Shown here one piece after another: positions 12,677 through 34,035 of a DNA stretch of 45,338 nt. The stretch covers positions 1-45,338 of the IMG/VR virus record IMGVR_UViG_3300009788_000154; one strand, given 5' to 3'. The notes beneath the pieces were generated by a model. That model saw only the letters and a list, made by a program, of their open reading frames with translations. It made no database searches and was not told the DNA's origin. A program made the position numbers and the translations under genes. The number at the start of each line of letters is the position of its first letter. Position 1 is the first letter of the stretch. The DNA is from a virus.

Positions 12677-14221
12677 ATGAAAAAAGAAAACGAGAAATGT
12701 CTTCTTGTTTTATTTATTATAATATCCTTTTCAATTATAGCCGACACAGTTTTGTCTTGTAAAGCGGACTTGGAAATAAATTATGGTCATATAAGAATCA
12801 GTAGAGAATCCCCCCCTGGAACACCAACTGTTGTTGTAAATCCCAGCGCTGGAAATCTTAATGGTGATTATTATTATAGAATTTCTTTCGTTACAGCAGG
12901 CGGCGAGACAACAATAAGTGAACATTCAACTAAAGTAAGCCCCGCCAACGAACGAGTTGATATTAGTGCAATTTCTATTGGAACTGACGAAGTAACGGCT
13001 CGTAAAATATACCGAACAACAGCAAACCCCGATGATGTTTATGCAAGAATGAAATATGTGGTTACATTGAATGATAATACAACTACGACATATACTGATA
13101 ATATTTCTGATGGTAATCTTGGAGACTGGAACCCAGGTATAAATACTACTGGTGGTCTTATCTATGTAAATAATATTCCTTCTATGGTTTTAGGTGATTT
13201 ATATTCATTAACTGCTGTTGGTTATCGGGCGGGAGAAAGTAATAAAGGTTACTATAATACAGCCTTTGGAACATTAGCACTTTATAGCAATACAACAGGT
13301 TCATTTAATGCTGCCTCTGGTTATAATTCAATGCGTTCCAATACAGTTGGAGAAAAAAATACAGCTTACGGCCATGATTCTATGTACCATAATACAACTG
13401 GGATTGAAAATACTGCTGTTGGTAGTTGGGCATTAAGTAAAAATGAAGATGGTAACTATAATGTTGCTATTGGTAATAATGCTTTATACAATAATATTAG
13501 CGGCTCATATAATATGGCTTTAGGTAAAGGGGCTTTAACTAAAAACACTACATCTTATAATACAGCAATGGGGGTTTTTGCGGCTTATTATAATACAGGT
13601 GTGGCTAATATTGCAGTAGGCCATAACGCTCTTTTTTATCAAGAGACAGGGGGTTGGAATGTTGGAATAGGTCAAGAATCTGGAAAAGGAACTGCCACAC
13701 ATAATAGTTCTTTTAATGTTTTTATAGGTGCGCACTCAGGTTACTCAAATTCTACTGGTGGTAAAAACATTTTTATTGGTCGCAGTGCTGGTTATCACCA
13801 GACTACAAATTCAAACCTTCTTATTATAGACAATCAAAATAGAGGCAGCGTGGCCGCAGAAGCCACTGACTCTCTAATATATGGAGAGTTTAACGCTACT
13901 CAAGCCTCACAGAAGTTGATTATTAACGCCGACCTTGTGTCTAATACTTATAATTTTGCGGCAGACGCACAAGATAACGACGCTTATGTAATTTTGCTTG
14001 ACCCTCCACCCAAAGCATACATTACAGGTATGATGATAGTTTTTACTGCCAATACGGAGAATACGGGCTCTTGCGCGGTTAATGTCAATATGTTAGGAGC
14101 AATACCCCTAAAGATGCTACACGACCAAGACCCCGAAGACAATTATATCGAATCAGGAAGTGTTGTTGTAGCAGTTTATGATGGGAATAACTTCCAAATG
14201 ATTCAGCCAACAGCTAATTAG
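12677..14221 (+). CDS. Exported or lipoprotein-like fibre protein with repeats
   Basis: 514 residues. Residues 9-27 form a hydrophobic signal segment after a Lys-rich start, ending VLSC28, which fits a loose lipobox. Residues 45-155 resemble a phage tail beta-domain (YYYRISFVTAGGETTIS, then ARKIYRTTA). Residues 178-385 are about nine 23-residue repeats of the type NTAxGxxALxxN, as in trimeric fibres and adhesins. The C-terminal domain (about 410-514) is separate. It is encoded between the terminase and portal genes. A tail fibre or adhesin with a bacterial export signal is unusual; display on the infected cell is an alternative to assembly into virions. Confidence 0.75.
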   Translation: MKKENEKCLLVLFIIISFSIIADTVLSCKADLEINYGHIRISRESPPGTPTVVVNPSAGNLNGDYYYRISFVTAGGETTISEHSTKVSPANERVDISAISIGTDEVTARKIYRTTANPDDVYARMKYVVTLNDNTTTTYTDNISDGNLGDWNPGINTTGGLIYVNNIPSMVLGDLYSLTAVGYRAGESNKGYYNTAFGTLALYSNTTGSFNAASGYNSMRSNTVGEKNTAYGHDSMYHNTTGIENTAVGSWALSKNEDGNYNVAIGNNALYNNISGSYNMALGKGALTKNTTSYNTAMGVFAAYYNTGVANIAVGHNALFYQETGGWNVGIGQESGKGTATHNSSFNVFIGAHSGYSNSTGGKNIFIGRSAGYHQTTNSNLLIIDNQNRGSVAAEATDSLIYGEFNATQASQKLIINADLVSNTYNFAADAQDNDAYVILLDPPPKAYITGMMIVFTANTENTGSCAVNVNMLGAIPLKMLHDQDPEDNYIESGSVVVAVYDGNNFQMIQPTAN

Positions 14222-14229
14222 GAGAAATA

Positions 14230-14994
14230 ATGTCTCTGATAGCTCATTACAAGATGAATGACAACCTTGCTACTGATGTTATTATTGATGAAACTGGAAA
14301 CCATAATGGGGCGGTTAAAGATGTCACAGGAACGGCGACGTCAACATTTCATTCTGTGGCCGGAAAAATAAACAAAGCACAAGATTTTGACGGAACAGAT
14401 GACTATATCGAAGTTGCCGACCACGCTGATTTTACACCTGCTCTCATTCCGTTTAGTATCAGCGCCTGGGTTTATATGCACGATGCGAGTGACTTTGTGG
14501 TAACAAGTAAGGGTGTCTTGGGTGTGGATGGTGAATGGGTATTTTATATAGCAGGTGATGATATCTTGCGTTGGCGGCAATTTGATGAAAGTTTAGGTAT
14601 TCGTAGAGGCCGTAAATATAATTCTGTTCTAACTGGCTACGAAAATCAGTGGATTCACTTAGTGGCAACTGCCGATGGGGGAGCTTTGAGTTCCGGACTT
14701 AGAATCTATCTTAATGCTATTCGTATTGACGATACTGATGACCTCACTGGCATTTTTGTTTCTGTAGAAAATCTCACTCATGCTATTTGGATAGGTAGGT
14801 ATGATACAAGTTATGCCAATGGTCTCATTGACAATGTAGTATTCTTTAGCAAAGAAGTAACACCAGATGAAGTTAAGAGGATTTACAATAACGGACACGG
14901 CACGGAAATATTGGCAGAGGTAGATTCAGTTATAAGTCCGAGACGTAGTAATACTTCGCCATTGGGATTGAGGGCAAGATATGAGTTTCCTTAA
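14230..14994 (+). CDS. LamG/concanavalin-A-like lectin-domain protein
   Basis: 254 residues behind TAGGAGAAAT. Features of the LamG_3 jelly-roll fold are clear: LIAHYKMNDN at the start, GKINKAQDFDGTDDYIEV at 45-62, FSISAWVYMHD at 74-84, WIHLVATADGG at 142-152, and GLIDNVVFFSKEVTPDEVKR at 197-216. Such domains bind carbohydrate or decorate virions. It follows the repeat fibre gene by 8 bases, so the two may act together in host attachment. Confidence 0.85.
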   Translation: MSLIAHYKMNDNLATDVIIDETGNHNGAVKDVTGTATSTFHSVAGKINKAQDFDGTDDYIEVADHADFTPALIPFSISAWVYMHDASDFVVTSKGVLGVDGEWVFYIAGDDILRWRQFDESLGIRRGRKYNSVLTGYENQWIHLVATADGGALSSGLRIYLNAIRIDDTDDLTGIFVSVENLTHAIWIGRYDTSYANGLIDNVVFFSKEVTPDEVKRIYNNGHGTEILAEVDSVISPRRSNTSPLGLRARYEFP

Positions 14995-21227: not shown

Positions 21228-21932
21228 ATGGCTTTGATAGGTGAACATCTTATCGATGAGATTCAGGCCGTTACGGGTAGGACTGCCGCCGGAGAACCTC
21301 TGGTAGATACTACAAGATGCACTCGCTGGTTAAATGAAGCCCAAAAAAGAATTGCCCGCGAATGCGTTAATTTAGAATGTCTTTCTTTTGATAACAGGGA
21401 TTCCATAGATACTACACAAACCTTAAGGTATGCGGTAGCCGATATAACGGTTGGCGACACTTCTACTTTAGAAAGAGTTAATCGGGTATTTGATGTTTAT
21501 TATTTAGATGGTCTCGAATCGAGAAAACTTACATATATGTTTATTGACGATTTCGATGCCAAATATCCAGACCCGACCCATACCAACGTACCAAAAGACA
21601 GACCTACGCACTGGACTCGCCGAGGCAATAATATTGAGATATTCCCTTTGTGTTTAACTGCATATTGCGATGATGATTTAAGATTCGTAGGGGACTTCTG
21701 GCCACATGACCTTACAACTGACGACCCTACATATAGCGATATATGCGAAGGAGACGAAGGGCTTATCGCTTACGGTGTGTGGAAGGCTTGGAATTCTATC
21801 GGGGGACAGCAAGCGACCTTGGAAGCGTTGAAATGGAAAAAGACATTTAACGATTGGCTCGATGAGTTCAAAGAGCGAAACGAGATTCTACACGAATGGG
21901 ATGGGAAGGAATATGGAGACGAACTTTACTGA
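21228..21932 (+). CDS. Head-tail adaptor (P22 gp4-like)
   Basis: 234 residues. Starts with helices carrying LIDEIQAVTGR and TRCTRWLNEAQKRIARECVN, then a beta part with KDRPTHWTRRGNNIEIFP, and ends with helices (LEALKWKKTFNDWLDEFKER). This helix-beta-helix layout and the W..NEAQ..IA pattern are typical of podovirus adaptor proteins that sit below the portal. Position after the capsid genes agrees. Confidence 0.75.
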   Translation: MALIGEHLIDEIQAVTGRTAAGEPLVDTTRCTRWLNEAQKRIARECVNLECLSFDNRDSIDTTQTLRYAVADITVGDTSTLERVNRVFDVYYLDGLESRKLTYMFIDDFDAKYPDPTHTNVPKDRPTHWTRRGNNIEIFPLCLTAYCDDDLRFVGDFWPHDLTTDDPTYSDICEGDEGLIAYGVWKAWNSIGGQQATLEALKWKKTFNDWLDEFKERNEILHEWDGKEYGDELY

Positions 21933-22314
21933 GAAGAGTTCTTTGACAAGTAAAAATGGATGTAAATATGGCATAGATTGTCCACTAAGGCCGAGAAGTG
22001 ATATTCCATATTGCTGTGGCCAATGCAGTAGAAAGAGAAAGCCTTTTATAAATGATGCTAACAGGCATTTGTGGACAGACGAAACTGGTTTTCATTCTTC
22101 TCAAGGATGTAAATTGCCCAGAGAGGAAATGCCTCCTGATTGCGTAGAATATGATTGTCGTCAACGTCCGTTTGTAGCGCTCTTGTATTGGAAAGGTGGT
22201 AAATGGCAGGCATTGAGAGGTTTCGAGTTAGAACATAATGAAACAGAGGCAATAATAATGTCTATCAATGCTACTATGAAGGTAAATCGTGAACAAAATC
22301 AAAATAATATCTGA
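21913..22314 (+). CDS. Cysteine-rich zinc-binding protein
   Basis: 133 residues from the ATG behind GGGAAGGAAT, overlapping the adaptor gene by 20 bases. Cys clusters include CKYGIDCPLRP, YCCGQC, GCKLP and PDCVEYDC, enough for two zinc sites. No family recognised. It is the last gene before the sugar cassette and overlaps the NeuB-like gene by 26 bases, so the cassette is translated in the same operon. Confidence 0.65.
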   Translation: METNFTEKSSLTSKNGCKYGIDCPLRPRSDIPYCCGQCSRKRKPFINDANRHLWTDETGFHSSQGCKLPREEMPPDCVEYDCRQRPFVALLYWKGGKWQALRGFELEHNETEAIIMSINATMKVNREQNQNNI

Positions 22315-23125
22315 TATGGGTGCCGAGCATCAACAGTCTTTTCAAAAGGCTCTGGCGATAGTCTGGTCGGCTGCCGAGGCCGGTGCCGATGCTTTGAAAG
22401 TCCAGATGTTCACACCGGATGATATGACCTTACCTAAAGATGATGAAAGGTTCAAAATAACGAAGGGACTTTGGCAGGGTCATACCCTATACGAATTGTA
22501 CGAGAAGGCTTGTATGCCTTATGACTGGATACCTCGCCTGAAAGAGCATACGGAGGCCAGAGGAATGGAATTTATTGTTACGGTATTTCACCCCAGAACC
22601 GTACCTATAGCCGAGGAAATGGGCATTGAAACGTACAAGGTGGCCTCATTTGAAATAAATTACGAAAATTTAATATTAGCACTTGACAAAACTGATAAGC
22701 CGGTTATAGTAAGTACAGGTTCGGCCACCTATAAGGAAATAGAATCAGTGGTCAAAGTTTTGAGAAGGAATTTGACGTTGTTAAAATGCACTTCGCAATA
22801 TCCCGCACCCGTAGAATCAATGAACCTAAAGACCATTCCCGCTTTGGAGCATTGCTTTAAGGTTCCTGTCGGTTTATCAGACCATACGACTGGCATAGTA
22901 GCTCCGGTAGTTGCGGTCAGTTTGGGTGCCAAGGTCATCGAGAAGCATATCACTATTGATGGCAAGGGTTTGGATGGTTCGTTTGCTATTCTGCCCGACA
23001 GGTTCGCTGTGATGGTACAGGCGATAAGGGAAGCGGAGAACTCTTTAGGTGAAATAGATTATGGTGGCGAAAAAACATACCATCGTCAATTGATAGACGG
23101 TGAAATGTTAAGGGCAATAGCGTGA
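22289..23125 (+). CDS. NeuB/PseI-type nonulosonate synthase lacking the SAF domain
   Basis: 278 residues. Enzymes of this family condense phosphoenolpyruvate with a hexosamine to make sialic, legionaminic or pseudaminic acid. Visible motifs: GAEHQQSFQKAL (11-22), AGADALKVQMFTPD (31-44), YKVASFEIN (116-124), LLKCTSQYPAP (164-174), GLSDHT (195-200) and EKHITID (218-224); H199 and H220 correspond to the metal-binding histidines. The TIM barrel is complete, but the C-terminal SAF (antifreeze-like) domain of the usual ~340-residue enzymes is missing. The choice between NeuB and PseI substrates cannot be made by eye. Confidence 0.9.
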   Translation: MNKIKIISDMGAEHQQSFQKALAIVWSAAEAGADALKVQMFTPDDMTLPKDDERFKITKGLWQGHTLYELYEKACMPYDWIPRLKEHTEARGMEFIVTVFHPRTVPIAEEMGIETYKVASFEINYENLILALDKTDKPVIVSTGSATYKEIESVVKVLRRNLTLLKCTSQYPAPVESMNLKTIPALEHCFKVPVGLSDHTTGIVAPVVAVSLGAKVIEKHITIDGKGLDGSFAILPDRFAVMVQAIREAENSLGEIDYGGEKTYHRQLIDGEMLRAIA

Positions 23126-23384
23126 GTAATACACCAAATGATATATTGATTAAAGCTAATCTTTTAATACAAAGGCAATTAGCTCAAAGAGATAGACCAA
23201 TAGAATTGACTAATGAAGATAAATTTGCTATTGCTTTTGCTGTTGGTGTAGAGACACATTTTGAAACAGATTATGATGGTTGGTTGCCTGCTCAAGATAC
23301 TACTAAAATAAAAGCAATAACTGTTCCTTGTGGCATAGCTTGGGATGGCGATAAATTTTGTGTATTTACAGGGCAATAGCGTGA
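23111..23384 (+). repeat. 15-bp direct repeat AGGGCAATAGCGTGA
   Basis: Identical copies at 23111-23125 and 23370-23384 form the junctions between successive genes. The first copy is read as RAIA-stop and the second in another frame as TGQ-stop, so the identity is at DNA level. A third, shorter relative (AGCGTGAAAT) is at the junction near 23591. Confidence 0.75.
23122..23379 (+). CDS. Small hypothetical protein (GTG start)
   Basis: 85 residues; the GTG overlaps the NeuB-like stop (GTGA). Helical first half (NDILIKANLLIQRQLAQRDR), beta second half ending CGIAWDGDKFCVFTGQ. It does not resemble the SAF domain missing from the preceding gene. Function unknown. Confidence 0.55.
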   Translation: MSNTPNDILIKANLLIQRQLAQRDRPIELTNEDKFAIAFAVGVETHFETDYDGWLPAQDTTKIKAITVPCGIAWDGDKFCVFTGQ

Positions 23385-23596
23385 AATGTGTAATGCCAAA
23401 TTGTGATAAAGAAGTTCCTATAAATAAAAATGGAGATTATTTACCTTGTCTTCAAATACCATTAAGTTTAGGAAAAGCTAAGAAATTCGAGGAACTATCT
23501 CGAATAAGAATATTTTATCCTAAAGACCAACCTCTGTGCCAAAAACATAGGCTGACGATAATTATAGAAGCACTATTTGAGAAAGCAAAAGCGTGA
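23381..23596 (+). CDS. Small Cys-containing protein (GTG start)
   Basis: 71 residues from GTG at 23381, which lies in the repeated AGCGTGA junction. CVMPNCDKEV at the start and PLCQKH later can form one zinc site of the type common in small phage proteins (C..C..C..H). No family assigned. Confidence 0.55.
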   Translation: MKCVMPNCDKEVPINKNGDYLPCLQIPLSLGKAKKFEELSRIRIFYPKDQPLCQKHRLTIIIEALFEKAKA

Positions 23597-23691
23597 AATA
23601 TATCTATATGACATTCAAAGATGAGAAATATTTATATTTCGCGTGGTTGATTGGCGGGACGTGGTTGCGCAGAAAGTGGAGAAAGCAATGA
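23593..23691 (+). CDS. 32-residue membrane-like peptide
   Basis: The GTG overlaps the previous stop (GTGA), and the TGA overlaps the next ATG. The product begins MKYIYMTFKDEKYLYFAWLI and ends GGTWLRRKWRKQ: an aromatic, possibly membrane-inserting segment with a basic end. Overlap on both sides supports translation. Confidence 0.4.
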   Translation: MKYIYMTFKDEKYLYFAWLIGGTWLRRKWRKQ

Positions 23692-23963
23692 AACGTAGAG
23701 ATTTCCTAAAACTAATAGGTATAGCCCCAATAGCACCGAGCGTATTGGCGGCAATGCCAAAGAAGAAATTAACTTATCAAGGCGTAAAAATAGTTTTCAA
23801 TGAAAAATTGCCAGAAGATGGGGGGCTTCTTGTCAATAGGCCAATAGGATTTGCCTTAGAGGATATTTCCAAAGATGAATATGGATGGGCGCGTATTTGT
23901 ACGCAAGCTCAATTTATATGTGAACAATCAATAAGAAGCGGAAAGTTAGTTAATGTTAAATAA
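23688..23963 (+). CDS. Small protein with a twin-arginine (Tat) signal
   Basis: 91 residues from the ATG behind GGAGAAAG. The N-terminus MKRRDFLKLIGIAPIAPSVL matches the Tat consensus (RRxFLK followed by a moderately hydrophobic stretch), and AAM follows as a possible cleavage site. The mature part (KLTYQGVKIVFNEKLPEDGG) is small, beta-like and unrecognised. Folded export across the host membrane is predicted from the signal. It overlaps the PseB-like gene. Confidence 0.7.
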   Translation: MKRRDFLKLIGIAPIAPSVLAAMPKKKLTYQGVKIVFNEKLPEDGGLLVNRPIGFALEDISKDEYGWARICTQAQFICEQSIRSGKLVNVK

Positions 23964-24801
23964 TAAAAAGGTACTAATTAGTGGCGGAACTGGCTCGTTA
24001 GGTAATGCCTTAGTAGGGAAGATATGCACTGATTACAAACCTGAAAAGCTGATTATATTTTCGAGAGACGAGTACAAGCAGAAGATAATGGCTGAAAAGT
24101 TTGACTATTATCCTTGTTTGCGATTTTTCTTAGGTGATATACGAGATATTAAAAGGTTTAAGGAAGTATGTCGAGACGTTGATATAGTAATCCACGCAGC
24201 AGCTCTTAAGCAGATTCCAACACTCGAATATAATCCAACCGAGGCCATAAAGACAAACGTTGACGGTACTGTAAATGTAGTTGAGGCTTGTATTGACTGT
24301 GGCGTAGATAAGGCGATTTTAATATCTACGGACAAGGCCGTTAATCCTGTAAATCTTTACGGTGCTACCAAATTATGCGCCGAGAAGATATTCCTTGCGG
24401 CCAATTCGTTCAATAAGACAAGGTTCTCGGTAGTGAGATATGGTAACGTCCTCAATTCAAGAGGTTCGGTCATCGAGCATTTCCTAAAGTTGAAAGAGGC
24501 GGGGATAAAAGAATTTCCTATTACTCATCCTGATATGTCAAGATTTTGGTTGACCTTGGAAGATGCTGCAAGATTTGTTCTCGTATCATTGATAACAGCA
24601 AATGATAAGGTGGCAATACCACAAATACCATCTATGAGGATGGTAGATGTAGCAAGAGCAATAGACCCCGAATGTACTTTTAAGATTACAGGAATCCGAC
24701 CTGGAGAAAAACTGCACGAATCTCTTACAGAAGGATATACGTCAGATAAGAATGACCAATGGCTAACACCAGAAGAATTGAGAAGGAAAATAGGATTATG
24801 A
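23953..24801 (+). CDS. PseB-like UDP-sugar 4,6-dehydratase (SDR)
   Basis: 282 residues. Extended SDR of the FlaA1/PseB type, which converts UDP-GlcNAc to a 4-keto-6-deoxy sugar. Motifs: NAD-binding GGTGSLG (11-17), FSRDE (36-40), GDIRD (61-65), HAAALKQ (81-87), STDKAVNPVNLYGATK (125-140, catalytic Asp/Lys/Tyr region) and RYGNVLNSRGSV (about 162-173); GIRPGEKLHE is the C-terminal signature. It is about 50 residues shorter than typical PseB. The class that inverts C5 leads to pseudaminic acid, and I cannot separate the two classes by eye. Confidence 0.9.
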   Translation: MLNNKKVLISGGTGSLGNALVGKICTDYKPEKLIIFSRDEYKQKIMAEKFDYYPCLRFFLGDIRDIKRFKEVCRDVDIVIHAAALKQIPTLEYNPTEAIKTNVDGTVNVVEACIDCGVDKAILISTDKAVNPVNLYGATKLCAEKIFLAANSFNKTRFSVVRYGNVLNSRGSVIEHFLKLKEAGIKEFPITHPDMSRFWLTLEDAARFVLVSLITANDKVAIPQIPSMRMVDVARAIDPECTFKITGIRPGEKLHESLTEGYTSDKNDQWLTPEELRRKIGL

Positions 24802-25469
24802 GCATATTTTCAAGATTAGCTTTAGGGACGGCCAATTTCGGCAAGGAATACAACGGGGTCAAGGTCTCCGAAGATGAGCAGAAAAAGATACTGGATTACT
24901 GCCAGTGTTCTGGAATTGATATGGTTGACACTGCCGTTGCATACGAGTGGGATTGGTCGAACATCTCTACTTCTTTTGAAGTTGTTACAAAGGGCGATGG
25001 CACTGATGAATTTCCGAGAAAACCTTATGGTTATTTGGCGCACGAAGGAGTGATTTGGGAACCATTTTGGTGCAAGGTAACGTCTGCTGAAAAACAAGGG
25101 TTGTCTATTTATGAACCATCGTCTATTCCGCACTTTGGAACATTCGGAATACATCAAGCGGATATTATTCAAGTTCCATATTCGATATTCGACCGGAGAT
25201 TTGAGCCATACTTTGCAGAACTAAAGTCAGGAGGCACAGAAATCCACGTCCGTTCTATCTTCTTGCGGGGCAAGCTCTTAGAGAAATTCAAACCTTGGGA
25301 GTGCATAGCTTTTTGCTTGATGAATCCCTGTATAGACCGTGTAATAATCGGCGTGGATTCATTGCAACAGTTGAAAGACAACCTAAGACCGTTTCATCGT
25401 ATGAACTCCGCTGAGATTCACGATGAGAATATATTAGACCCCAGGAAATGGAAAAATGAGAAGGAGTAA
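24798..25469 (+). CDS. Compact aldo/keto reductase
   Basis: 223 residues from the ATG overlapping the previous stop. LALGTANFGKEYNG (7-20), IDMVDTAVAY (40-49; D44 and Y49), TKG (K65) and H82 supply the AKR catalytic tetrad. IIGVDSLQQLKDNL near the end is the typical NADPH-site motif. It is about 70 residues shorter than usual. Homologous reductases accompany NeuB/SpsF genes in surface-sugar clusters. The C-terminus WKNEKE is encoded by the AAGGAG of the next gene. Confidence 0.8.
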   Translation: MSIFSRLALGTANFGKEYNGVKVSEDEQKKILDYCQCSGIDMVDTAVAYEWDWSNISTSFEVVTKGDGTDEFPRKPYGYLAHEGVIWEPFWCKVTSAEKQGLSIYEPSSIPHFGTFGIHQADIIQVPYSIFDRRFEPYFAELKSGGTEIHVRSIFLRGKLLEKFKPWECIAFCLMNPCIDRVIIGVDSLQQLKDNLRPFHRMNSAEIHDENILDPRKWKNEKE

Positions 25470-25473
25470 AATT

Positions 25474-25722
25474 ATGGCAAAGTTTAAGATTGCTGATTGG
25501 GCATACGTTAAAGGTGCAAAACTTGAGGGGATGGGTGGATTTCTCACAAAGGTACACATATTAGAAGTTGTAACACAACTATGCGAGGCTGGTATTGAGC
25601 AAACTCGTTATTTATGTCGGATATTTATAAAGAGTTTGAGATGTGGATGGGAGCCTGCAGCAAAAGAAATACAGTTTCGTGAGATGGAATTGGAGTCTAT
25701 TGAGAAGGAGACAAATGAGTAA
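25474..25722 (+). CDS. Small hypothetical protein
   Basis: 82 residues from the ATG behind AAGGAG. MAKFKIADWAYVKGAKLEGM at the start and repeated IExTRYLCRIFIKSLRCGW-type helices later. The opening looks like a small beta-barrel found in phage proteins of unknown role. It overlaps the aminotransferase gene by 8 bases. Confidence 0.55.
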   Translation: MAKFKIADWAYVKGAKLEGMGGFLTKVHILEVVTQLCEAGIEQTRYLCRIFIKSLRCGWEPAAKEIQFREMELESIEKETNE

Positions 25723-26974
25723 CTGGCTAAGAACTTGTGAAATCATTCCCGATGGCGTTCAGACTCTTTCTAAGATGCCATCGAAGTTTGTGGATGGAGT
25801 TTATCCAAAGTACATTACTAAAGGCGATGGCGCCTATGTCTGGGGCGACAACGATAAAAAGTATATAGACTACCCTTGTGGACTCGGCGCCATCCTTTTA
25901 GGCTATAATAATCCAATAGTAAATAGAGCGATTATCGACCAATTAGCCAAAGGCATTCTGTTCTCGCTTCCCAATTATCTGGAAACTGAATTGGCCGAAA
26001 AGATAGTCGATATTGTCCCTTCTGCTGAGATGGTTAGATTCCTGAAAACGGGTAGCGAGGCGACCTCGGCGGCAGTCAGGATAGCAAGGGCATATACCGG
26101 CAAAGAAGGAATTATTTGTTGCGGTTATCACGGATGGCACGATTGGTATGCTTTTACGACTTCTAAGAACAAAGGTGTTCCCGAACAATATGTAATGCAA
26201 TGCAAATACAATGACATTGAAACTATGATAGAGATTTTTGACAAGCAAGACTCATCTACTGTTGGAATAGCCGCCGTCATTATGGAACCTTATATCCTCG
26301 AAGAGCCGAAGCAGGAATATCTTCGCAAGGTCAGAAAACTATGTAATCGCCACGGAGCGGCGTTGATATTCGATGAGATTGTTACCGGTTTTCGCACTTT
26401 GGAATGGACTGCCCAAAAATATTTCGATGTAACGCCAGACTTGACCTGTCTGGGTAAGGCAATGGCTAACGGATTGCCTATTTCCTGCATATGTGGGAAG
26501 AAGGAACTGATGAAAGAATTGCAAGGTGATTGTTTCGTATCATCGACTTTTGGCGGCGAACTTCTTTCGATTGCTGCTGCCCTTGCGACTATTAAGATAG
26601 TTGAGGAGCAAGGCGTTATCAAACAGATTTGGATTATGGGTTCAAGACTCACAGAGAGTTTTAAACAGTTGGTAGGTGTAATGAATTTGAATGACGGTGT
26701 GAGCATTTTGGGTTATCCACCGAGAACATTTTTCAAGTTTAAGACCGAAGCCCACAAGTCGTTATTCTGGCAGGAATGTCTCAAGAAAGGAGTCTTGTTC
26801 GGATATGCCCAATTCATAAACTGGTCGCACGGATTAGGCGAGATAGACCAGACTGTAATGGCTATGAGACACGCTTTGGGTATGGTCAGGAAATACTGGG
26901 AACATCCTATAGATGCTCTTGAAGGTGCTGTTGCACAGGAAACTTTTAGATTACTTGAGAAGGAGAAAGTATGA
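25715..26974 (+). CDS. Class III PLP aminotransferase (glutamate-1-semialdehyde type)
   Basis: 419 residues from the ATG behind AAGGAG. Class III fold: GDGAYVWGDNDKKYIDYPCG (37-56), GSEATSAAVRIARAYTG (113-129), YHGWHDWY (138-145), IFDEIVTGFR (218-227; D220) and the PLP lysine K248 in CLGKAMANG. Such enzymes occur in nonulosonate and spore-coat sugar clusters, where they may aminate the 4-keto sugar made by the PseB-like enzyme, a step done by DegT-type PseC in the classical pathway. Alternatively it makes a side-chain amine. Its end encodes EKE within the next gene's ribosome binding site. Confidence 0.88.
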   Translation: MSNWLRTCEIIPDGVQTLSKMPSKFVDGVYPKYITKGDGAYVWGDNDKKYIDYPCGLGAILLGYNNPIVNRAIIDQLAKGILFSLPNYLETELAEKIVDIVPSAEMVRFLKTGSEATSAAVRIARAYTGKEGIICCGYHGWHDWYAFTTSKNKGVPEQYVMQCKYNDIETMIEIFDKQDSSTVGIAAVIMEPYILEEPKQEYLRKVRKLCNRHGAALIFDEIVTGFRTLEWTAQKYFDVTPDLTCLGKAMANGLPISCICGKKELMKELQGDCFVSSTFGGELLSIAAALATIKIVEEQGVIKQIWIMGSRLTESFKQLVGVMNLNDGVSILGYPPRTFFKFKTEAHKSLFWQECLKKGVLFGYAQFINWSHGLGEIDQTVMAMRHALGMVRKYWEHPIDALEGAVAQETFRLLEKEKV

Positions 26975-27126
26975 AAGAGCAACAAGATATAGATAAGTGT
27001 ATGAAATGCCAAAGATTTGAGGCAAATATTGGGAATTCACAAAATCAAAGATTTGGTACATATTGTGGCATATATTCACGACCAAAAGGAAGTTGTGATT
27101 TTATTCCAGAGAAGGAGAAAAAATGA
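26971..27126 (+). CDS. 51-residue zinc-binding protein
   Basis: The ATG overlaps the preceding stop. Cysteines at C10, C13, C34 and C44 (CMKCQRFEANIG, YCGIY, GSCDF) fit a single zinc site. The tail PEKEKK is encoded by the GAGAAGGAG that also serves the acetyltransferase. Role unknown. Confidence 0.55.
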   Translation: MKEQQDIDKCMKCQRFEANIGNSQNQRFGTYCGIYSRPKGSCDFIPEKEKK

Positions 27127-27650
27127 AGCTTGAAGCTCTGACCCTTGAACAATGCGAGCGAGTTCGTATTTGGCGCAACGCCGAAATGGAAGTCTGGCGC
27201 ACGCCATTTATGCTTACAGAGGAAATGCAAGCGGACTTTTATCACGATAGAGTCTACGATAGAAATTCCGAGCATAGATATTGGGCGATATGCACAGGAA
27301 CAGGTATTCACAAGTTTCTTGGTATGGGTGGCATAACTTATATAAGTTGGGAAAACCGAATAGGCGAGATAACACTTATCATCGACCCTGAAAAAAGAAA
27401 AGATGGTTTAGGCGAAAAGGCCGTTGATTTGCTTTTAGATCAAGCCTTCAATCATCTTAATCTCAAGACGGTTTTTGGAGAGTGCTATGGCGCAAATGAA
27501 AAGGGTTGTTCTTTTTGGCAAAGTATTACTGTTAAGTACAATGGATTTACAACGGCCTTGCCAAATAGAAAATACTGGAAAGGCGTATATGAGAATAGTC
27601 TATATTTCTCGATAGACAAAGATGACTTCAACAAAATCCATAATAGTTAG
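27123..27650 (+). CDS. GNAT-family N-acetyltransferase (PseH-like role)
   Basis: 175 residues. RimJ/RimL-type GNAT: MKLEALTLEQCERVRIWRNA at the start, FLGMGGITYISWENRIGEIT (about 65-84), then LIIDPEKRKDGLGEKAVDLL, the acetyl-CoA loop. In nonulosonate pathways a GNAT (PseH) acetylates the 4-amino group before synthase action; that role here is inferred from context. It overlaps the next gene by 29 bases. Confidence 0.82.
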   Translation: MKLEALTLEQCERVRIWRNAEMEVWRTPFMLTEEMQADFYHDRVYDRNSEHRYWAICTGTGIHKFLGMGGITYISWENRIGEITLIIDPEKRKDGLGEKAVDLLLDQAFNHLNLKTVFGECYGANEKGCSFWQSITVKYNGFTTALPNRKYWKGVYENSLYFSIDKDDFNKIHNS

Positions 27651-28152
27651 CAATCGTGGCGAAGCAGATATAACAAAGCGCGAAGATTTTACGCCGATGA
27701 AGTTGCTGCTTTACGACAACTTGGATTATATCTTTGTGCCATTTTGGAGTTGGTATATTCCAGTTGAAATCTTTGAAAACTGGGAAGTGATTGTATTTCA
27801 CTGCACGGACTTGCCTTATGGGCGCGGGGGGAGTCCGTTGCAGAATTTAATAATACGTGGCCATAAAAAGACGATGATAAGTGCTATTCGATGCGTCAAG
27901 GAAATTGATGCAGGTGCGATTTACTGTCGCAGTGAGTTGGATATATCCTATGGTACGGCGGATGAGATTTACGATAGGGCGGATAAAATTATCAGAGAAA
28001 AAATGATACCATACATTTTGGAGATAAGACCCAAGCCAAGGCCACAGGAAGGCAAACCCATCTATTTCGAGAGATGGAAATGTAGCAAAGAAGATGTGAT
28101 AAGGGCAATGGAGACTGATTATGAGGATATTGGTTGTAGCAGCACATCCTGA
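27622..28152 (+). CDS. Formyltransferase-like sugar-modifying enzyme
   Basis: 176 residues. FENWEVIVFHCTDLPYGRGG (51-70) and SPLQNLIIRG match the formyl-folate transferase core (H60, DLPxGRGGSP), and KEIDAGAIY (93-101) is the second conserved motif. Related proteins formylate sugar amines and occur in NeuB clusters. It is shorter than methionyl-tRNA formyltransferase and lacks its tRNA-binding C-terminal domain, supporting a small-molecule substrate. It overlaps its neighbours on both sides. Confidence 0.8.
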   Translation: MTSTKSIIVSNRGEADITKREDFTPMKLLLYDNLDYIFVPFWSWYIPVEIFENWEVIVFHCTDLPYGRGGSPLQNLIIRGHKKTMISAIRCVKEIDAGAIYCRSELDISYGTADEIYDRADKIIREKMIPYILEIRPKPRPQEGKPIYFERWKCSKEDVIRAMETDYEDIGCSSTS

Positions 28153-28690
28153 TGATGAGATACTCGGTTGTGGCGGTACGACAGAGCGATTGAAAAGAGA
28201 AGGTAATACAATAAGCATCGTTTTGTTAGGCCAAGGACGATTTAAGTCTCAGGATAATAAATTTGATGAAGTACCTTTATTGCATTGGGTTCAAAAAGTA
28301 GAAAGTTATATTGAACAACGGAAACCCGACATCATCTTCACCCATTACGAGAAAGACTTAAACATAGACCATCGCATAACATACCAAGCGGTGATAACGG
28401 CGGCGCGGCCTATGCCTGATTGTTGCGTAAAAGAGATATATTCCTTTGAGGTTTTGAGTTCTACCGAATGGTCTTTCCCGACAAGTTTCTCGCCAGATGT
28501 GTTTTATAAATTGACGAAAGAACAAGTAAAAGATAAGTGGAATAATCTTATAGATAAATATTCAGCAGAAGTAAGAGCTTATCCGCACCCCCGCTCCGTA
28601 AAAGGAATAGAAACTTTAGCTATGTATCGTGGTATGCAAATAGGTGTTGATTTTGCCGAAGCATTCAAGACTGTGAGAGTTATCCGATGA
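28121..28690 (+). CDS. PIG-L/LmbE-family deacetylase
   Basis: 189 residues. AHPDDE (8-13) and DLNIDHR (79-85; H84) give the metal-binding and catalytic residues of GlcNAc-PI or LmbE-like deacetylases, which remove an N-acetyl group from sugars. In this cassette it could deacetylate an intermediate so that a different acyl group (formyl or acyl, from neighbouring enzymes) can be added. It overlaps the formyltransferase gene by 32 bases, suggesting coordinated amounts. Confidence 0.88.
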   Translation: MRILVVAAHPDDEILGCGGTTERLKREGNTISIVLLGQGRFKSQDNKFDEVPLLHWVQKVESYIEQRKPDIIFTHYEKDLNIDHRITYQAVITAARPMPDCCVKEIYSFEVLSSTEWSFPTSFSPDVFYKLTKEQVKDKWNNLIDKYSAEVRAYPHPRSVKGIETLAMYRGMQIGVDFAEAFKTVRVIR

Positions 28691-28827
28691 AGTTGGAAGA
28701 AGTTAAAAAACAAGCAATTAAAAAAATTCGTAAGCAAACTAAACTGGCGGGTTTAAATTGTGATAGTTTATCGGATGAAGAATTATGGTCTATATGGTGG
28801 AATATTGTAAAAGAAAATGAAACTTGA
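28687..28827 (+). CDS. 46-residue helical protein
   Basis: Starts in the previous stop (ATGA) and overlaps the next gene by 11 bases. Lys-rich helix (MKLEEVKKQAIKKIRKQTKL) followed by a Trp-containing end (DEELWSIWWNIVKENET). No recognised domain. The overlaps support translation. Confidence 0.5.
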   Translation: MKLEEVKKQAIKKIRKQTKLAGLNCDSLSDEELWSIWWNIVKENET

Positions 28828-29620
28828 AGAACTAACAGCCCTTTATAGCCCTCTGGATATTGAATACGCTCAAGCAATGTCCGGCGAATACGAAGACCTA
28901 TCTTTCAGGTCTGACGAAATAACGATTATAGCGGGGTTGAAAGACGGCAGGATTAGCGGTTTCTGGCGTCCTGTGGTCGCTGTGGGCGACGAACGGCTCC
29001 AAAAGCTACATATAGAGCGTCTTTACGATATATGCCAGAATATCTACTATATGGACTTTCTGATAGACGGTAAATTATCGGTGATAAGCCAGTTCCTTTT
29101 GAGGCACAGACACAAGGCGAGACCGTATTATACGCAGATTATAGATGTTACAAAAGACCCAACTACATTACATAGTAATCTAAGAAAAAGCTATAAAAGT
29201 CTTATAAATAATCGCAAGGAGTATATTGTAAGTTCAGGAGTTATCTCTGATTTAATGGATTTACATAATCATACAAAAGGCCAGACGCGCAGTTTTGAAA
29301 CGTGGCATATTCAAAAGCAAATGATAAACAAAGGCGAAGCGTTTGTCATTTACGATAGAGAGATAGGGTCTATTTTTGGCGGAGCTTTGTTTTATATAAA
29401 TAACAATGGCATAGGATATTATGCTTCAGGTACATCCGTAAAACAACATCCAAATCACGCTATAATATGGAACGCGATAATACATACACAAGGATTAAAA
29501 TATATGGAGTTGGGCGAACAGGTATTTTCTGGCAATGAAAAACTTGTGAACATAAGCAAATTCAAACGGGGTTTCGGTGGCGAAACCAAAACAAGACTTA
29601 TTCTTGAGAAGGAGCAATAA
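28817..29620 (+). CDS. FemAB/GNAT-like acyltransferase
   Basis: 267 residues. LRKSYKSLIN (122-131), a central region with GGALFYINNNGIGYYASGTS and the end FKRGFGGETKTR give the layout of FemAB-like acyltransferases frequent in surface-polysaccharide clusters. It may add an acyl or aminoacyl group to the sugar amine exposed by the deacetylase. Substrate not determinable. The C-terminal EKE is encoded by the ribosome binding site of the next gene. Confidence 0.7.
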   Translation: MKLEELTALYSPLDIEYAQAMSGEYEDLSFRSDEITIIAGLKDGRISGFWRPVVAVGDERLQKLHIERLYDICQNIYYMDFLIDGKLSVISQFLLRHRHKARPYYTQIIDVTKDPTTLHSNLRKSYKSLINNRKEYIVSSGVISDLMDLHNHTKGQTRSFETWHIQKQMINKGEAFVIYDREIGSIFGGALFYINNNGIGYYASGTSVKQHPNHAIIWNAIIHTQGLKYMELGEQVFSGNEKLVNISKFKRGFGGETKTRLILEKEQ

Positions 29621-30997
29621 ATGGCAAAGAAGAAAACAGCACCAACACCAAAAGAGCGTAAACGCATATTGGTTTTAACAGCTTCTCCCAGACGAGACAT
29701 TCTAATAGACGAACTCTTATCTGACAAGTTAAGGTCGTTAGGCAACGATGTTTGGGTATCGCCTTGCTTGAGAGAAGGCAGGCAAAAGACTTTAGAGATT
29801 GAACCTGATGTTGTACTCTTACCGCCGATACGGAATATGTATAGCAGGGACTTCGCCGAGACGCTTAAAAGGTGGGGTGTTGGCGTGGTTACAAGACATA
29901 CCGAGCCGAGTTGTGATTGGGCTGATTTTAAGAAAATGGACGCGAGGCAAAAGGCTGAAATCTGGGGTAATATGCCTTACATAGCTGATATGGAAATAGT
30001 ATGGGGCGAGGATGAAGTACAGATACTCCAAAAGAGGGGATGCAGGTTCCCCGTCTATGCGGTCGGTTCTTTCTCGGCGGACAAATACTTAAACGAAGAT
30101 TTCAAGAAAAGGTATCGTCATAGAGATAAATTTAACCAGAAATACAAATTCAAGAAAACGAAGAAGACGATACTCATACAATCACCGTGGGGCTTTGCCG
30201 ACCATTCGCCCGATTTGAGAATAGACGAAATAGACGAGTTCAAGGAAGACATTGCCGGCAGAGATAGACATTTGGATATGATAGAGCAATTACACAAGGC
30301 ATTAAATGATAAGTACAATATTCTCGTTACTACCCATCCAGGCGTTATCACTGAACCTTACAAGGAACGTCTTGATAAATTGAAGATACCCCTTGATGTC
30401 GAGGCTGTGTGTTTGGAGTTAATGATAAATTCTGATATTCTCATTCACGCCGGTTCGACTATGGCGGTCGGGGCACATCTTCTCGGTATGCCTGCCTTTC
30501 AATTCGGTGATGCAAACGTCAAGGAATCCAAGAACTGGTGGTCTGATTCCAATAAGATTATGTCAGAAATCTCACCATATTTTAAGGACGTGGAAAATTT
30601 AATTGAAACGATAAAGATAACTCCTCGGCAATTTTCAAATGCAAAAGTTAAAACCATTGAAGCCCTCAAAAAAGGTCGTTACGGCAAGATGGACGGCAAG
30701 GCTTACGAGAGAGCTGCTATTCTAATAAACAAGGTTCAAGGCCACTTCAAGATGTGCTGGCCAAAGACTACCCGTGATTACAACCAACTTACTATCGTCA
30801 AGTATCCACACCAAGTATTAAACAGCGTGGTATGCGGAATATGCAAGGAACCGTTCCAAGTTATCAGTAAGGATTGGATTGAAAAACTTCTGGTCAATAT
30901 CGGTGAGGAACACGCTGACAAACTAAGACCCAAATTCGGAACGTGCTGCCCGCATTGCGGCTCGAAATATATGATGAAAAAGGAGATGATGAGATGA
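29621..30997 (+). CDS. Surface-carbohydrate glycosyltransferase-like protein with C-terminal zinc ribbon
   Basis: 458 residues. A GT-B-like body: RKRILVLTASPRRDILIDEL (13-32), TRHTEPSCDWADF, KKTILIQSPWGFADHSPDLR and SDILIHAGSTMAVGAHLLGM (the C-terminal nucleotide-sugar region) resemble proteins annotated as surface carbohydrate biosynthesis proteins. Residues 403-458 form a separate zinc ribbon (C405, C408, C443, C446) not usual in this family. It may transfer the activated sugar. A PseG/NeuC-like hydrolase role is less likely. Confidence 0.7.
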   Translation: MAKKKTAPTPKERKRILVLTASPRRDILIDELLSDKLRSLGNDVWVSPCLREGRQKTLEIEPDVVLLPPIRNMYSRDFAETLKRWGVGVVTRHTEPSCDWADFKKMDARQKAEIWGNMPYIADMEIVWGEDEVQILQKRGCRFPVYAVGSFSADKYLNEDFKKRYRHRDKFNQKYKFKKTKKTILIQSPWGFADHSPDLRIDEIDEFKEDIAGRDRHLDMIEQLHKALNDKYNILVTTHPGVITEPYKERLDKLKIPLDVEAVCLELMINSDILIHAGSTMAVGAHLLGMPAFQFGDANVKESKNWWSDSNKIMSEISPYFKDVENLIETIKITPRQFSNAKVKTIEALKKGRYGKMDGKAYERAAILINKVQGHFKMCWPKTTRDYNQLTIVKYPHQVLNSVVCGICKEPFQVISKDWIEKLLVNIGEEHADKLRPKFGTCCPHCGSKYMMKKEMMR

Positions 30998-31623
30998 TAA
31001 AGATTATAGATGCGGAAAAAGGTATTGTTAAAGTAACGCCGAAGCGGAAGAAGGTTGCCATTATCGGTTGTGGGACAGGCAGAGATTATGCCCCCTATGA
31101 TAATAAAGAATGGGAATGTTGGGGTTTGAATGAAGTTGACCAACAGCGAGCCGATAGATGGTTTGAGATACACGAACTATATGCCTCAAGCGAAAGAGAA
31201 GTTGAATGGCTCAAAAAATGCAAGAAGCCAATATATATGATAAAAAGGTATCCTGAAATACCAATGTCGGTTTGTTATCCTTTAACTGAAATCGCAAAAA
31301 TGTTTGATTGCCCTCTATATTTTACCTGTACCTTTGCGTATCAGATAGCCCTTGCCATATACGAGAAATTTGAGGTAATTGGTTTATTTGGTGTTAATTT
31401 GCCTTATGGCTCGCCGAGAGAAAGACTTATAGAAACACCTTGCACCGAATATTGGCTTGGCGTTGCGAGTGGAAAGGGCATAGAAATTCGGATTCCTCAA
31501 GACGAATATCTTTTGCATCACGAATATTTATACGGGTATCACTACCAAAAAGAAATAGACTACACCAAGAGAAAAGTGGCCGCTATGTGGGGCAGGATGC
31601 AAACTGATTTGTACTTAAAATGA
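30994..31623 (+). CDS. Rossmann-like phage protein
   Basis: 209 residues, starting in the previous stop (ATGA). KKVAIIGCGTGRDYAPYDNK (18-37) is a glycine-rich Rossmann start, followed by WECWGLNEV and RWFEIHELYA. I recognise this as a widespread phage protein of unknown function whose members share (I/V)GxxPSW/GTGRD..WGLN..RWFELH. It may bind a nucleotide or SAM. Its position suggests work in the sugar pathway. Confidence 0.65.
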   Translation: MIKIIDAEKGIVKVTPKRKKVAIIGCGTGRDYAPYDNKEWECWGLNEVDQQRADRWFEIHELYASSEREVEWLKKCKKPIYMIKRYPEIPMSVCYPLTEIAKMFDCPLYFTCTFAYQIALAIYEKFEVIGLFGVNLPYGSPRERLIETPCTEYWLGVASGKGIEIRIPQDEYLLHHEYLYGYHYQKEIDYTKRKVAAMWGRMQTDLYLK

Positions 31624-32231
31624 AAGTGGTAGCTATTATTCAAGCTCGTTTAGGCAGTGAGAGACTACCAAATAAGGTACTCTTAAAGATACCGCCCGAT
31701 AGCGGGATAACCTGTCTTGAGAGGGTTATAGAGAGAGTTAAGAAAAGCACCCTTATCAATGATATTGTATTAACCTCACCAGATGGACAGTTGAACTCAA
31801 TCGCTCGGAAGCAAACCATTATCTTTCATTTCTATCCTGGAGCAAGAGATGTTTTGGCTGAGTATTACTCAGCAGCCAAAGAAACTGATATTATCGTTAG
31901 AATTACCGCTGATTGCCCCTTGATAGACCCTGAAATAATTGACCAATGTATAGACGAATTTCTTGACAGCGATGTAGATTTGGCGTATAATACAAGTGAA
32001 GATGAAGGGCAGTTGAATGGCGAGGGTAGTGATGTAGAGGTATTTTCGTTTAACGCTCTCCAAAGGGCATACAACGAAGCTAAAACACCTGATGATAGAG
32101 AGCACGTTACTAAATATATGAGGCGGACAATGAGGACAAAAAAAGTATCTATGAAGAAGTTGGGAATCAAGAGCCTCAATACGTGGGAAGATTATCAAGA
32201 TATTTGTAAAATTTACGAGAAGGAGAAATAA
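31620..32231 (+). CDS. SpsF/PseF-type cytidylyltransferase
   Basis: 203 residues. VAIIQARLGSERLPNKVL (4-21) is the nucleotide-binding signature of CMP-sugar synthetases (SpsF, NeuA, PseF, KdsB superfamily). RITADCPLIDPEIIDQCIDE follows. The enzyme would activate the nonulosonic acid with CTP as CMP-sugar for a glycosyltransferase. It is at the downstream end of the cassette and overlaps the Rossmann gene by four bases. Confidence 0.88.
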   Translation: MKVVAIIQARLGSERLPNKVLLKIPPDSGITCLERVIERVKKSTLINDIVLTSPDGQLNSIARKQTIIFHFYPGARDVLAEYYSAAKETDIIVRITADCPLIDPEIIDQCIDEFLDSDVDLAYNTSEDEGQLNGEGSDVEVFSFNALQRAYNEAKTPDDREHVTKYMRRTMRTKKVSMKKLGIKSLNTWEDYQDICKIYEKEK

Positions 32232-32371: not shown

Positions 32372-32998
32372 TTGAAACAATGTAGCAAATGTAAAATCTG
32401 GAAGGATGAGGGGGAGTTTCATAAAAATTCTCGCACTAAGGATGGTTTGTGTAGCAAGTGCAAGGTTTGCGCAATTATCTTAGCGCAAAAATGGACGGAA
32501 GATAACCGCAAACGTAGTCGTCAAATCAAAGCTAAATGGCAAAAGAATAATCGACAAAAACAAAACGAAATACGCAAACGTTGGCGCAAAGCCAATCCTA
32601 AAAAAGTAGCTTCAATTCAAAAAAAGCACGATGCCAAACGTGCTAAAGTCCCAAGAAATAAGCTAAGTCGCAATATTAGTAGGCGAATAAGGTATAGTCT
32701 GCACGGAAACAAAAATGGGTTGCATTGGGAAACACTTGTAGGATATACATTACAAGAACTAAAACAGCATATAGAATCTCAATTTGTCGAGGGTATGTCT
32801 TGGGATAATTACGGTGAATGGCATATCGACCACCAGATACCTATAAGCGCATTTAATTTTGATTTCCCAGAAGATATAGATTTCAAACGATGTTGGGCGA
32901 TAGAGAATTTGAAACCTTTGTGGAGATTTGAGAATTTGTCTAAATCAGGAAAAGTAAATAAGCATTTTCAGCCTATGTTGAAAATGAAAATAATATAA
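32372..32998 (+). CDS. HNH endonuclease with N-terminal zinc finger (TTG start)
   Basis: 208 residues from a TTG. C4, C7, C27 and C30 form the N-terminal zinc finger typical of free-standing HNH endonucleases. A basic linker (34-100) follows. The HNH nuclease core is HIDHQIPIS (151-159), followed by ENLKPLW (178-184). A perfect ribosome binding site (AAGGAGG, 32351-32357) instead serves an ATG giving MNLETM-stop at 32365-32385, so the gene depends on reinitiation, a weak TTG, or has suffered a one-base shift. It marks the downstream edge of the sugar cassette and may mobilise DNA there. Confidence 0.85.
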   Translation: MKQCSKCKIWKDEGEFHKNSRTKDGLCSKCKVCAIILAQKWTEDNRKRSRQIKAKWQKNNRQKQNEIRKRWRKANPKKVASIQKKHDAKRAKVPRNKLSRNISRRIRYSLHGNKNGLHWETLVGYTLQELKQHIESQFVEGMSWDNYGEWHIDHQIPISAFNFDFPEDIDFKRCWAIENLKPLWRFENLSKSGKVNKHFQPMLKMKII

Positions 32999-33009
32999 GG
33001 AGATAAATC

Positions 33010-34035
33010 ATGTCGGTACACCCTGACGGTTCGGGCAGTGGTTGGACGAATGTTGAGACTGTCGATGTCAACCAACCGCACGGATTTGATTATAGATACA
33101 GTCAACACATAGCCAAAGGTGTTCGCAAGAGGTTAGACCAGGAACATTCGACTTTTGCCGATGCTACGGTCGGCGCCATCCACACCCCAGGCGGATGCGC
33201 AATTCTCGGAATGGAAATCAGCGACGACGGTGGGGACATTACTTCGCCCGTAGTCGGGGACGGCACGTACAGAGCGAGGGGATTAGTTTGGGCTTGGGAC
33301 GGTTCTCAGAACGCAATCCTATGGTGTGCTACCAAAGCTGCCGGAAACTCTACGACCGGCGACTGGACTGTCTTAATGATACATCCAGACAAGCAATGGG
33401 GTGGTAGGGATGTTACCTGGGCTGGGGCGCACGAGTTCGATGCCTCTGTGGATATATCCGGCAACGTAGCTATGGACGGAGATTTGACTGTTGATGGAGT
33501 GTTGAAAGTCGATAGCTCTGCTGATTTTTCTGATGTCTATGTTGATGGCGATATATCGGTAAAGGGTTCATTGAAAGTTGCTACTGACGTTACTATTACC
33601 GGCGATATGGCGATTGATGGTACTTCTAATTTTTATGATGAAGTTGATTTTTCTGATGTCTATTTGAGAGGAGACGTAACTGGCTCGGCTCTTGGAATAG
33701 TATCGGTTTTTGGCGCTTATACTGATGAAGACGATGATTCTCAAACACTTGCAGCAGCTCATGCTTATCTTGCGAATCAAGACGGTTTTGTTCTTGCGGT
33801 ATGGACAGCAACAGGTGCGGGAAATGCTGTTAATGCTTATATTGATACTGATAACAATCCTGCTGCTGGTGGGGATTTAGTACAAAAAGTTAACTCTTAT
33901 GGCAATGGATACGAATATAGTATATCTTTTCCAGTTGCGAAAGGTAAATATTGGGAAATTACACATAATGGCACAAGTGTTGTTATTCGATGGTTTCCTA
34001 TTGGAGTTTTGGTTAAATGTACTGACCAAGATTAA
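33010..34035 (+). CDS. Tail fibre/appendage protein
   Basis: 341 residues behind AAGGAGATAA. Residues 1-150 are a globular virion-binding domain (MSVHPDGSGSGWTNVETVDV, then VGDGTYRARGLVWAWDGSQN). Residues 150-225 are short repeats of the type VDGDLTVDGVLKV that form a beta-helix or triple-helical shaft. The remaining ~100 residues are a beta-rich tip. Typical of receptor-binding tail fibres of podoviruses. It resumes the structural genes after the sugar cassette. Confidence 0.75.
   Translation: MSVHPDGSGSGWTNVETVDVNQPHGFDYRYSQHIAKGVRKRLDQEHSTFADATVGAIHTPGGCAILGMEISDDGGDITSPVVGDGTYRARGLVWAWDGSQNAILWCATKAAGNSTTGDWTVLMIHPDKQWGGRDVTWAGAHEFDASVDISGNVAMDGDLTVDGVLKVDSSADFSDVYVDGDISVKGSLKVATDVTITGDMAIDGTSNFYDEVDFSDVYLRGDVTGSALGIVSVFGAYTDEDDDSQTLAAAHAYLANQDGFVLAVWTATGAGNAVNAYIDTDNNPAAGGDLVQKVNSYGNGYEYSISFPVAKGKYWEITHNGTSVVIRWFPIGVLVKCTDQD

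Follow-up and report, generated by a model that had tools for sequence, protein, structure and literature searches.

Why would a phage keep, in the middle of its virion genes, the enzymes for a sialic-like sugar? The question is raised by IMG/VR record IMGVR_UViG_3300009788_000154, analysed here over its full 45,338 bases (hereafter the window), in which an earlier note had read ten enzyme genes as a phage-borne nonulosonic acid (NulO) pathway. Profile searches with Pfam and TIGR/NF models confirmed the ten families, all on the + strand between an SU10_adaptor gene and a fibre-like gene, and the family matches support a pathway of pseudaminic (Pse) type within the virion gene block; the earlier gene list had omitted a conserved gene of the same run at 30994-31623 (its product hereafter X226), three small open reading frames (ORFs) at 23122-23963 and an ORF at 25456-25722. 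We consider it fairly probable that the cassette is a phage-encoded, vertically inherited operon that makes and attaches a pseudaminic-type NulO. NulO biosynthesis by the cassette is well supported, and gene position suggests late expression and decoration of the virion: late synthesis of the sugar and its placement on virion proteins are most likely, because the operon lies in the virion block, is co-directional and co-evolves with the capsid.

The cassette is phage-resident, inherited with the virion genes and under purifying selection. Scans with the class-III pyridoxal phosphate (PLP) aminotransferase (hereafter AT3), the GT-B protein and the synthase as queries yielded 13 further IMG/VR contigs with at least five cassette genes (L002, L088, L089, L090, L091, L092, L178, L179, L184, L185, L188, L194 and L212), which together with the window we call the cassette phages (n = 14); some contigs stop within the cassette. 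L093 and L180 seem to be other assemblies of L091 and L178, respectively, and L182 and L191 are fragments. The shared order is adaptor-NeuB-PseB-AKR-AT3-GNAT-FemAB-GT-B-SpsF-fibre-tail, the eight genes from NeuB to SpsF forming the core; the aldo/keto reductase (AKR) found no match in two of the 13 relatives, L002 and L194. The contigs come from different metagenomes and protein identity among them drops to about 40%. Distances between cassette proteins correlate with those between capsid proteins (Mantel r 0.59-0.88, p<0.01), and dN/dS between the window and L002 ranges over 0.06-0.20 across the cassette genes compared, as against 0.04-0.08 for the portal, capsid and adaptor genes; near-saturation of synonymous sites makes these values rough. 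In a midpoint-rooted tree of 94 rows, the 14 AT3 sequences of the cassette phages form one clade (support 100/97) apart from 79 bacterial sequences. Among named phages, the portal query gave no relatives, the NeuB query only three, all distant, and the AT3 query many matches that are apparently bacterial contamination. A literature search, beyond whose reach lay most subscription papers, found no phage NulO operon.

Comparison of profiles places the synthase closer to PseI than to NeuB, and its best PDB alignment is with the Pse synthase 8h2c (E=3.7e-61); the residues that we take, from NeuB structures, to form the active site are mostly retained. The nearest PDB chain to the PseB protein, 2gn4, is a C6 dehydratase of UDP-N-acetylglucosamine (UDP-GlcNAc). 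Key motifs are kept in PIG-L, SpsF, AKR and AT3: AKR aligns with the Asp/Tyr/Lys/His residues of the AKR tetrad, and SpsF has the conserved motifs QARxGSxRLPxK and DCP, with a match to the PseF profile of only E=7e-6. The CMP-sugar synthetase step is thus predicted to be covered by an SpsF-type protein. The GNAT protein reaches 35.8 bits against the PseH model TIGR03585, whose cut-off is 93. The formyltransferase-like protein, which has a relative (43%) in the bacterial cluster L071, lacks the usual catalytic Asn, and its gene and the PIG-L gene are confined, among the 14 cassette phages, to three: L185, the window and L002, in the last of which the PIG-L gene is displaced to the end. The earlier idea that the sugar is deacetylated and then re-acylated therefore fits a subset of these phages.

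The route that we infer from the enzyme families, with the exact sugar, the enzyme order, the acceptor and the benefit likewise inferred, would begin with conversion of UDP-GlcNAc by PseB to a 4-keto-6-deoxy sugar, with the C4 amine then added by AT3 standing in for PseC or by a PseC of the host. GNAT would acylate the amino sugar, a host PseG or the GT-B protein would strip off UDP, and the SAF-less PseI/NeuB synthase would join the free sugar to phosphoenolpyruvate. SpsF would then yield the CMP-sugar, from which the GT42-like X226, the GT-B protein or both would pass the sugar to its acceptor, while AKR, FemAB, PIG-L and the formyltransferase-like protein may adjust substituents.

Two proteins could act as the transferase. 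The top 15 PDB matches of the X226 model are all CstI/CstII (probability 1.00, E=1.7e-4 to 5e-3, template modelling (TM) score about 0.5), and every match at E<0.05 of a profile built from 54 relatives against PDB sequences is a GT42 protein. These likenesses make X226 a candidate nonulosonate transferase, and its GT42-like fold rules it out as PseG. In the alignment of the GT-B protein the THP and HxGST motifs are invariant and a Cys4 knuckle lies at the C-terminus, and the model of the protein, of lower predicted confidence (pLDDT 74), ties UDP-GlcNAc 2-epimerase and the CDP-glycerol transferase TagF in Foldseek (E about 1e-9 each). No single function can be assigned by fold, and given this tie the protein may be either a transferase or a hydrolase, that is, a candidate NulO transferase or UDP-sugar hydrolase. 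The PseG-like fold that, by the earlier note, would complete the pathway is thus not clearly present in any unassigned protein. A profile search of PDB sequences with the GT-B protein gave nothing, and 24 bacterial genomes that carry AT3 clusters, searched without a positive control, held no relative of it.

A second group of phages links the GT42-like family to NulO synthesis. Within flanks of ~6 kb, a family member occurs in 12 of 20 viral loci that carry NeuB but do not belong to the cassette family (E 1e-43 to 1e-57) and in none of 80 bacterial loci around related AT3; among the loci fetched by X226, six of 78 have NeuB. L211:408-9746 holds PseB, a short PseC, PseF, a Pse-associated methylase, WbuX, WbuZ and PseI above cut-off near a GT42-like gene, a set of predicted acetamidino-pseudaminate type. 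L205:67-9573 resembles it, with relatives across L196-L210, and in L198 terminase is the next gene. This linkage supports the tie between X226 and NulO. Tentatively, and with less than even confidence, we propose that tailed phages hold at least two separate self-made NulO systems, each with a phage-specific GT42-like or GT-B enzyme that would attach a sialic-like coat to the phage's own particle: the first of AT3 type and fixed in the virion operon, the second acetamidino-pseudaminic, with a shortened PseC, a full PseI and a GT42-like transferase.

The short, PseC-like DegT-family proteins of the second group (L211:1354-1962 and L205:938-1594, and others in the L201, L204, L206, L208 and L210 records) have about 205-228 residues, align with the 360-position profile in two distinct stretches and are apparently miniaturised. 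The GT42-like family itself (L096-L174) was confirmed in 123 viral stretches in one scan, many of them in phages whose fetched flanks show no NeuB; in L197 and L198 copies form part of longer fused proteins, and L209 has a duplicate.

Features of the NulO cassette and its flanks in the window.
Feature	Position	Strand	Evidence and remarks
SU10_adaptor head-tail adaptor, left flank of cassette	21228..21932	+	PF24175 E=4.7e-10; syntenic in relatives
Small Cys-rich protein	21862..22314	+	homologues usually between adaptor and NeuB in most cassette phages
NulO synthase, PseI/NeuB type, 278 aa, TIM barrel only	22289..23125	+	PF03102 E=1.1e-72; TIGR03586 E=1.5e-86
Three small ORFs (85, 83, 106 aa)	23122..23963	+	no Pfam match; NeuB adjoins PseB in L002
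PseB-type inverting UDP-GlcNAc 4,6-dehydratase, C-terminus shortened	23953..24801	+	TIGR03589 E=1.8e-112; PDB 2gn4 E=5e-85
Short AKR, ATGA overlap with PseB	24798..25469	+	PF00248 E=5e-6
Small ORF before AT3	25456..25722	+	no Pfam match
AT3, hemL-like, GKAMANG lysine	25715..26974	+	PF00202 E=7e-55
GNAT N-acyltransferase, PseH-like	27123..27650	+	PF13302 E=5e-13; PseH TIGR03585 E=8e-9
Short formyltransferase-like protein, accessory	27622..28152	+	PF00551 (Formyl_trans_N) E=1e-5, slightly under cut-off
PIG-L/LmbE deacetylase, accessory	28121..28690	+	PF02585 E=1.3e-19; AHPDDE and DLNxDH motifs
FemAB-like acyl/aminoacyl transferase, core	28817..29620	+	TIGR04421 E=9e-10; present in 13/13 relatives
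GT-B fold protein, core	29621..30997	+	NF046086 (BFO_1060 glycosyltransferase family) E=7e-24, below cut-off; TIGR04396 E=6e-17
GT42-like protein X226, ATGA overlap with GT-B gene	30994..31623	+	model pLDDT 93; CstI/CstII folds
SpsF-type CMP-NulO cytidylyltransferase	31620..32231	+	PF02348 (CTP_transf_3) E=3e-21; PDB 6oew cytidylyltransferase E=5.5e-23
Fibre-like protein, right flank of cassette	33010..34035	+	syntenic in relatives; weak bactofilin match

Elsewhere in the window, 10847-12586 has a terminase match and 12677-14221 carries the PHROGs label virion structural/tail spike. The gene of the small Cys-rich protein is present in two copies in L090 and relocated beside the GT-B gene in L088. 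Between SpsF and the fibre gene (32372-32998) lies an ORF that is HNH-like by eye and has no Pfam match; L212 has a relative between PseB and AKR, a different placement that suggests a mobile endonuclease. A Laminin_G_3/concanavalin-like domain among the virion genes (14230-14994) is a possible sugar-binding part of the virion, and the early region encodes a DUF5131 protein (3032-4069).

Several observations weigh against a phage-made, pseudaminic-type virion sugar. PseB and the synthase both score under the curated cut-offs (375.5 bits against the equivalog cut-off of 407.75 for TIGR03589, and 290.6 against 340 for the PseI model TIGR03586), partly because both C-termini are shortened. The synthase ends short of the SAF domain, which is retained in other phage PseI proteins, and it has Asp, as does that of L002, where most others have Glu. 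No equivalent of the CstII catalytic His188 was found in X226, its 54 relatives showing no conserved His in the segment from the GVD strand to the following helix, and for this reason we do not file X226 as GT42; most cassette phages, moreover, lack X226, whose gene occurs in the window, L002, L088 and L184. None of the 14 cassette phages, all of them searched, has PseC (DegT, PF01041), and PseG (TIGR03590), which the earlier note had also failed to recognise, was not convincingly matched in any of 29 viral records; the same search matched eight of nine bacterial genomes. The lone viral PseG match (E=0.009) covers only 34 residues, falls by position within the GT-B gene of L194 and was rejected. 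With neither PseG nor PseC, two steps would rely on the host or on replacements, namely AT3 and the GT-B protein. AT3 is a class-III enzyme and not of the PseC family, and in bacterial clusters it accompanies a normal PseC, so it may perform another step. Most other NulO phages, however, have a DegT gene of ~205-228 residues and no AT3 (L094 has both), a hint that AT3 fills the place of PseC in the cassette, and we hypothesise that it is a candidate substitute at C4 amination. As to the synthase, a shortened NeuB is also seen in the Bacteroidota cluster L018 and in the 290-residue PDB chain 6ncs, and the phage protein appears to offer a minimal PseI without SAF.

The same bacterial clusters raise the possibility, which we regard as rather doubtful, that the product is another nonulosonate or a 3-deoxy ulosonate, AT3 and AKR forming an extra amination module, on the model of bacterial clusters in which AT3 is found with an oxidoreductase and SpsF besides PseC. 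L026, L068 and L079 hold AT3 together with PseC, a Gfo/Idh/MocA oxidoreductase is present in L026, L071 and L079, an SpsF-AKR fusion occurs in a Vibrio Pse cluster (PMC7371886), and Bacteroidota L018:7201-13516 combines SpsF, a split transketolase, AT3, SDR, HAD phosphatase and a SAF-less NeuB. The L018 cluster would seem to make a 3-deoxy ulosonate by another route. A pseudaminic-type product is favoured by the inverting type of PseB, which is conserved in the cassette, by the synthase being nearer PseI than NeuB, and by the distribution of PseC-like proteins and AT3 in other NulO phages, mostly the reverse of that in the cassette, which suggests that the two can substitute for each other.

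The main rival to virion decoration concerns the destination of the sugar: the phage-made product might be put on the host surface (capsule, lipopolysaccharide or flagellin), blocking superinfection or changing recognition while infection proceeds. Known phage-borne NulO enzymes do act on the host, as with the 8-epi-Pse enzymes and O-acetyltransferases of Acinetobacter prophages, which alter the capsule (PMC12053666, PMC6586298), and the absence of PseG and PseC suggests that the host's own pathway feeds in. We nevertheless judge this destination unlikely, since the cassette is fixed between adaptor and fibre and tracks capsid evolution, a late surface change would bring little gain in a lytic infection, and no integrase was noticed, albeit without a systematic search. 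Decoration of phage DNA instead of protein is far less probable still. Other phages have their DNA hypermodified by virus-encoded glycosyltransferases (Pyle 2024, as cited in PMC12619734), but the cassette lies among virion genes, and no gene for hypermodified-base synthesis was recognised among the window proteins scanned, a set that took in part of the early genes. An assembly artefact, or bacterial contamination joined to phage, can practically be dismissed even though the enzyme families are of bacterial origin, since the same junctions recur in 13 other contigs across identities down to about 40%, which refutes a chimeric contig, one of the conditions that the earlier note had named as fatal to its reading, and the phage AT3 clade stands apart from its 79 bacterial counterparts.

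Set beside the PseB-PseC-PseH-PseG-PseI-PseF pathway of Helicobacter and Campylobacter, the cassette shares the PseB and PseI types, a PseH-like GNAT and a CMP-sugar synthetase, but lacks PseC (DegT) and PseG, has a SAF-less synthase and an SpsF-type protein for PseF, adds AT3, AKR and FemAB, and sits in a virion gene block. The bacterial AT3 NulO clusters (L071, L068 and L026) are similar in having AT3, PseB and NeuB, with SpsF in L026 and L068, PIG-L in L068 and L071 and the formyltransferase relative in L071. They differ in that PseG is kept, as is PseC where checked (L026 and L068), that NeuB is full-length in L026 (349 aa), that L026 and L071 have the Gfo/Idh/MocA oxidoreductase, and that the phage GT-B protein is unmatched in those genomes. 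The SpsF-AKR fusion of the Vibrio B9-25K2 cluster links both of these enzymes to the Pse pathway, but that cluster is chromosomal and has PseC and PseG (PMC7371886). The Acinetobacter phage proteins EpaA/EpaB and the O-acetyltransferases likewise act on NulO, but they tailor a host-made sugar, whereas here the phage bears most of the synthesis (PMC12053666, PMC6586298). X226 shares with CstI/CstII the fold and an equivalent of Asn51 of CstII (the conserved Asn47), but at about 14% identity, a TM score of about 0.5 and with the catalytic His not found. Virion glycosylation is established in mycobacteriophages (Freeman 2023, as cited in PMC12619734). The likeness to the present case is that of a phage sugar-coating its particle, as is proposed here. 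We know of no nonulosonate pathway reported for mycobacteriophage virion glycosylation.

Single phage genes that alter host NulO were already known, as was the chemistry from bacteria. What appears to be new is a nearly complete, long-resident NulO set in a phage virion operon, together with a tied phage GT42-like family. The set offers new synthases, a possible PseC substitute and a new candidate family of sugar transferases. Its long retention within the virion operon implies that the sugar is important for the particle itself and, if true, this would add sialic-like decoration to phage biology, with bearing on adsorption, stability and immune recognition.

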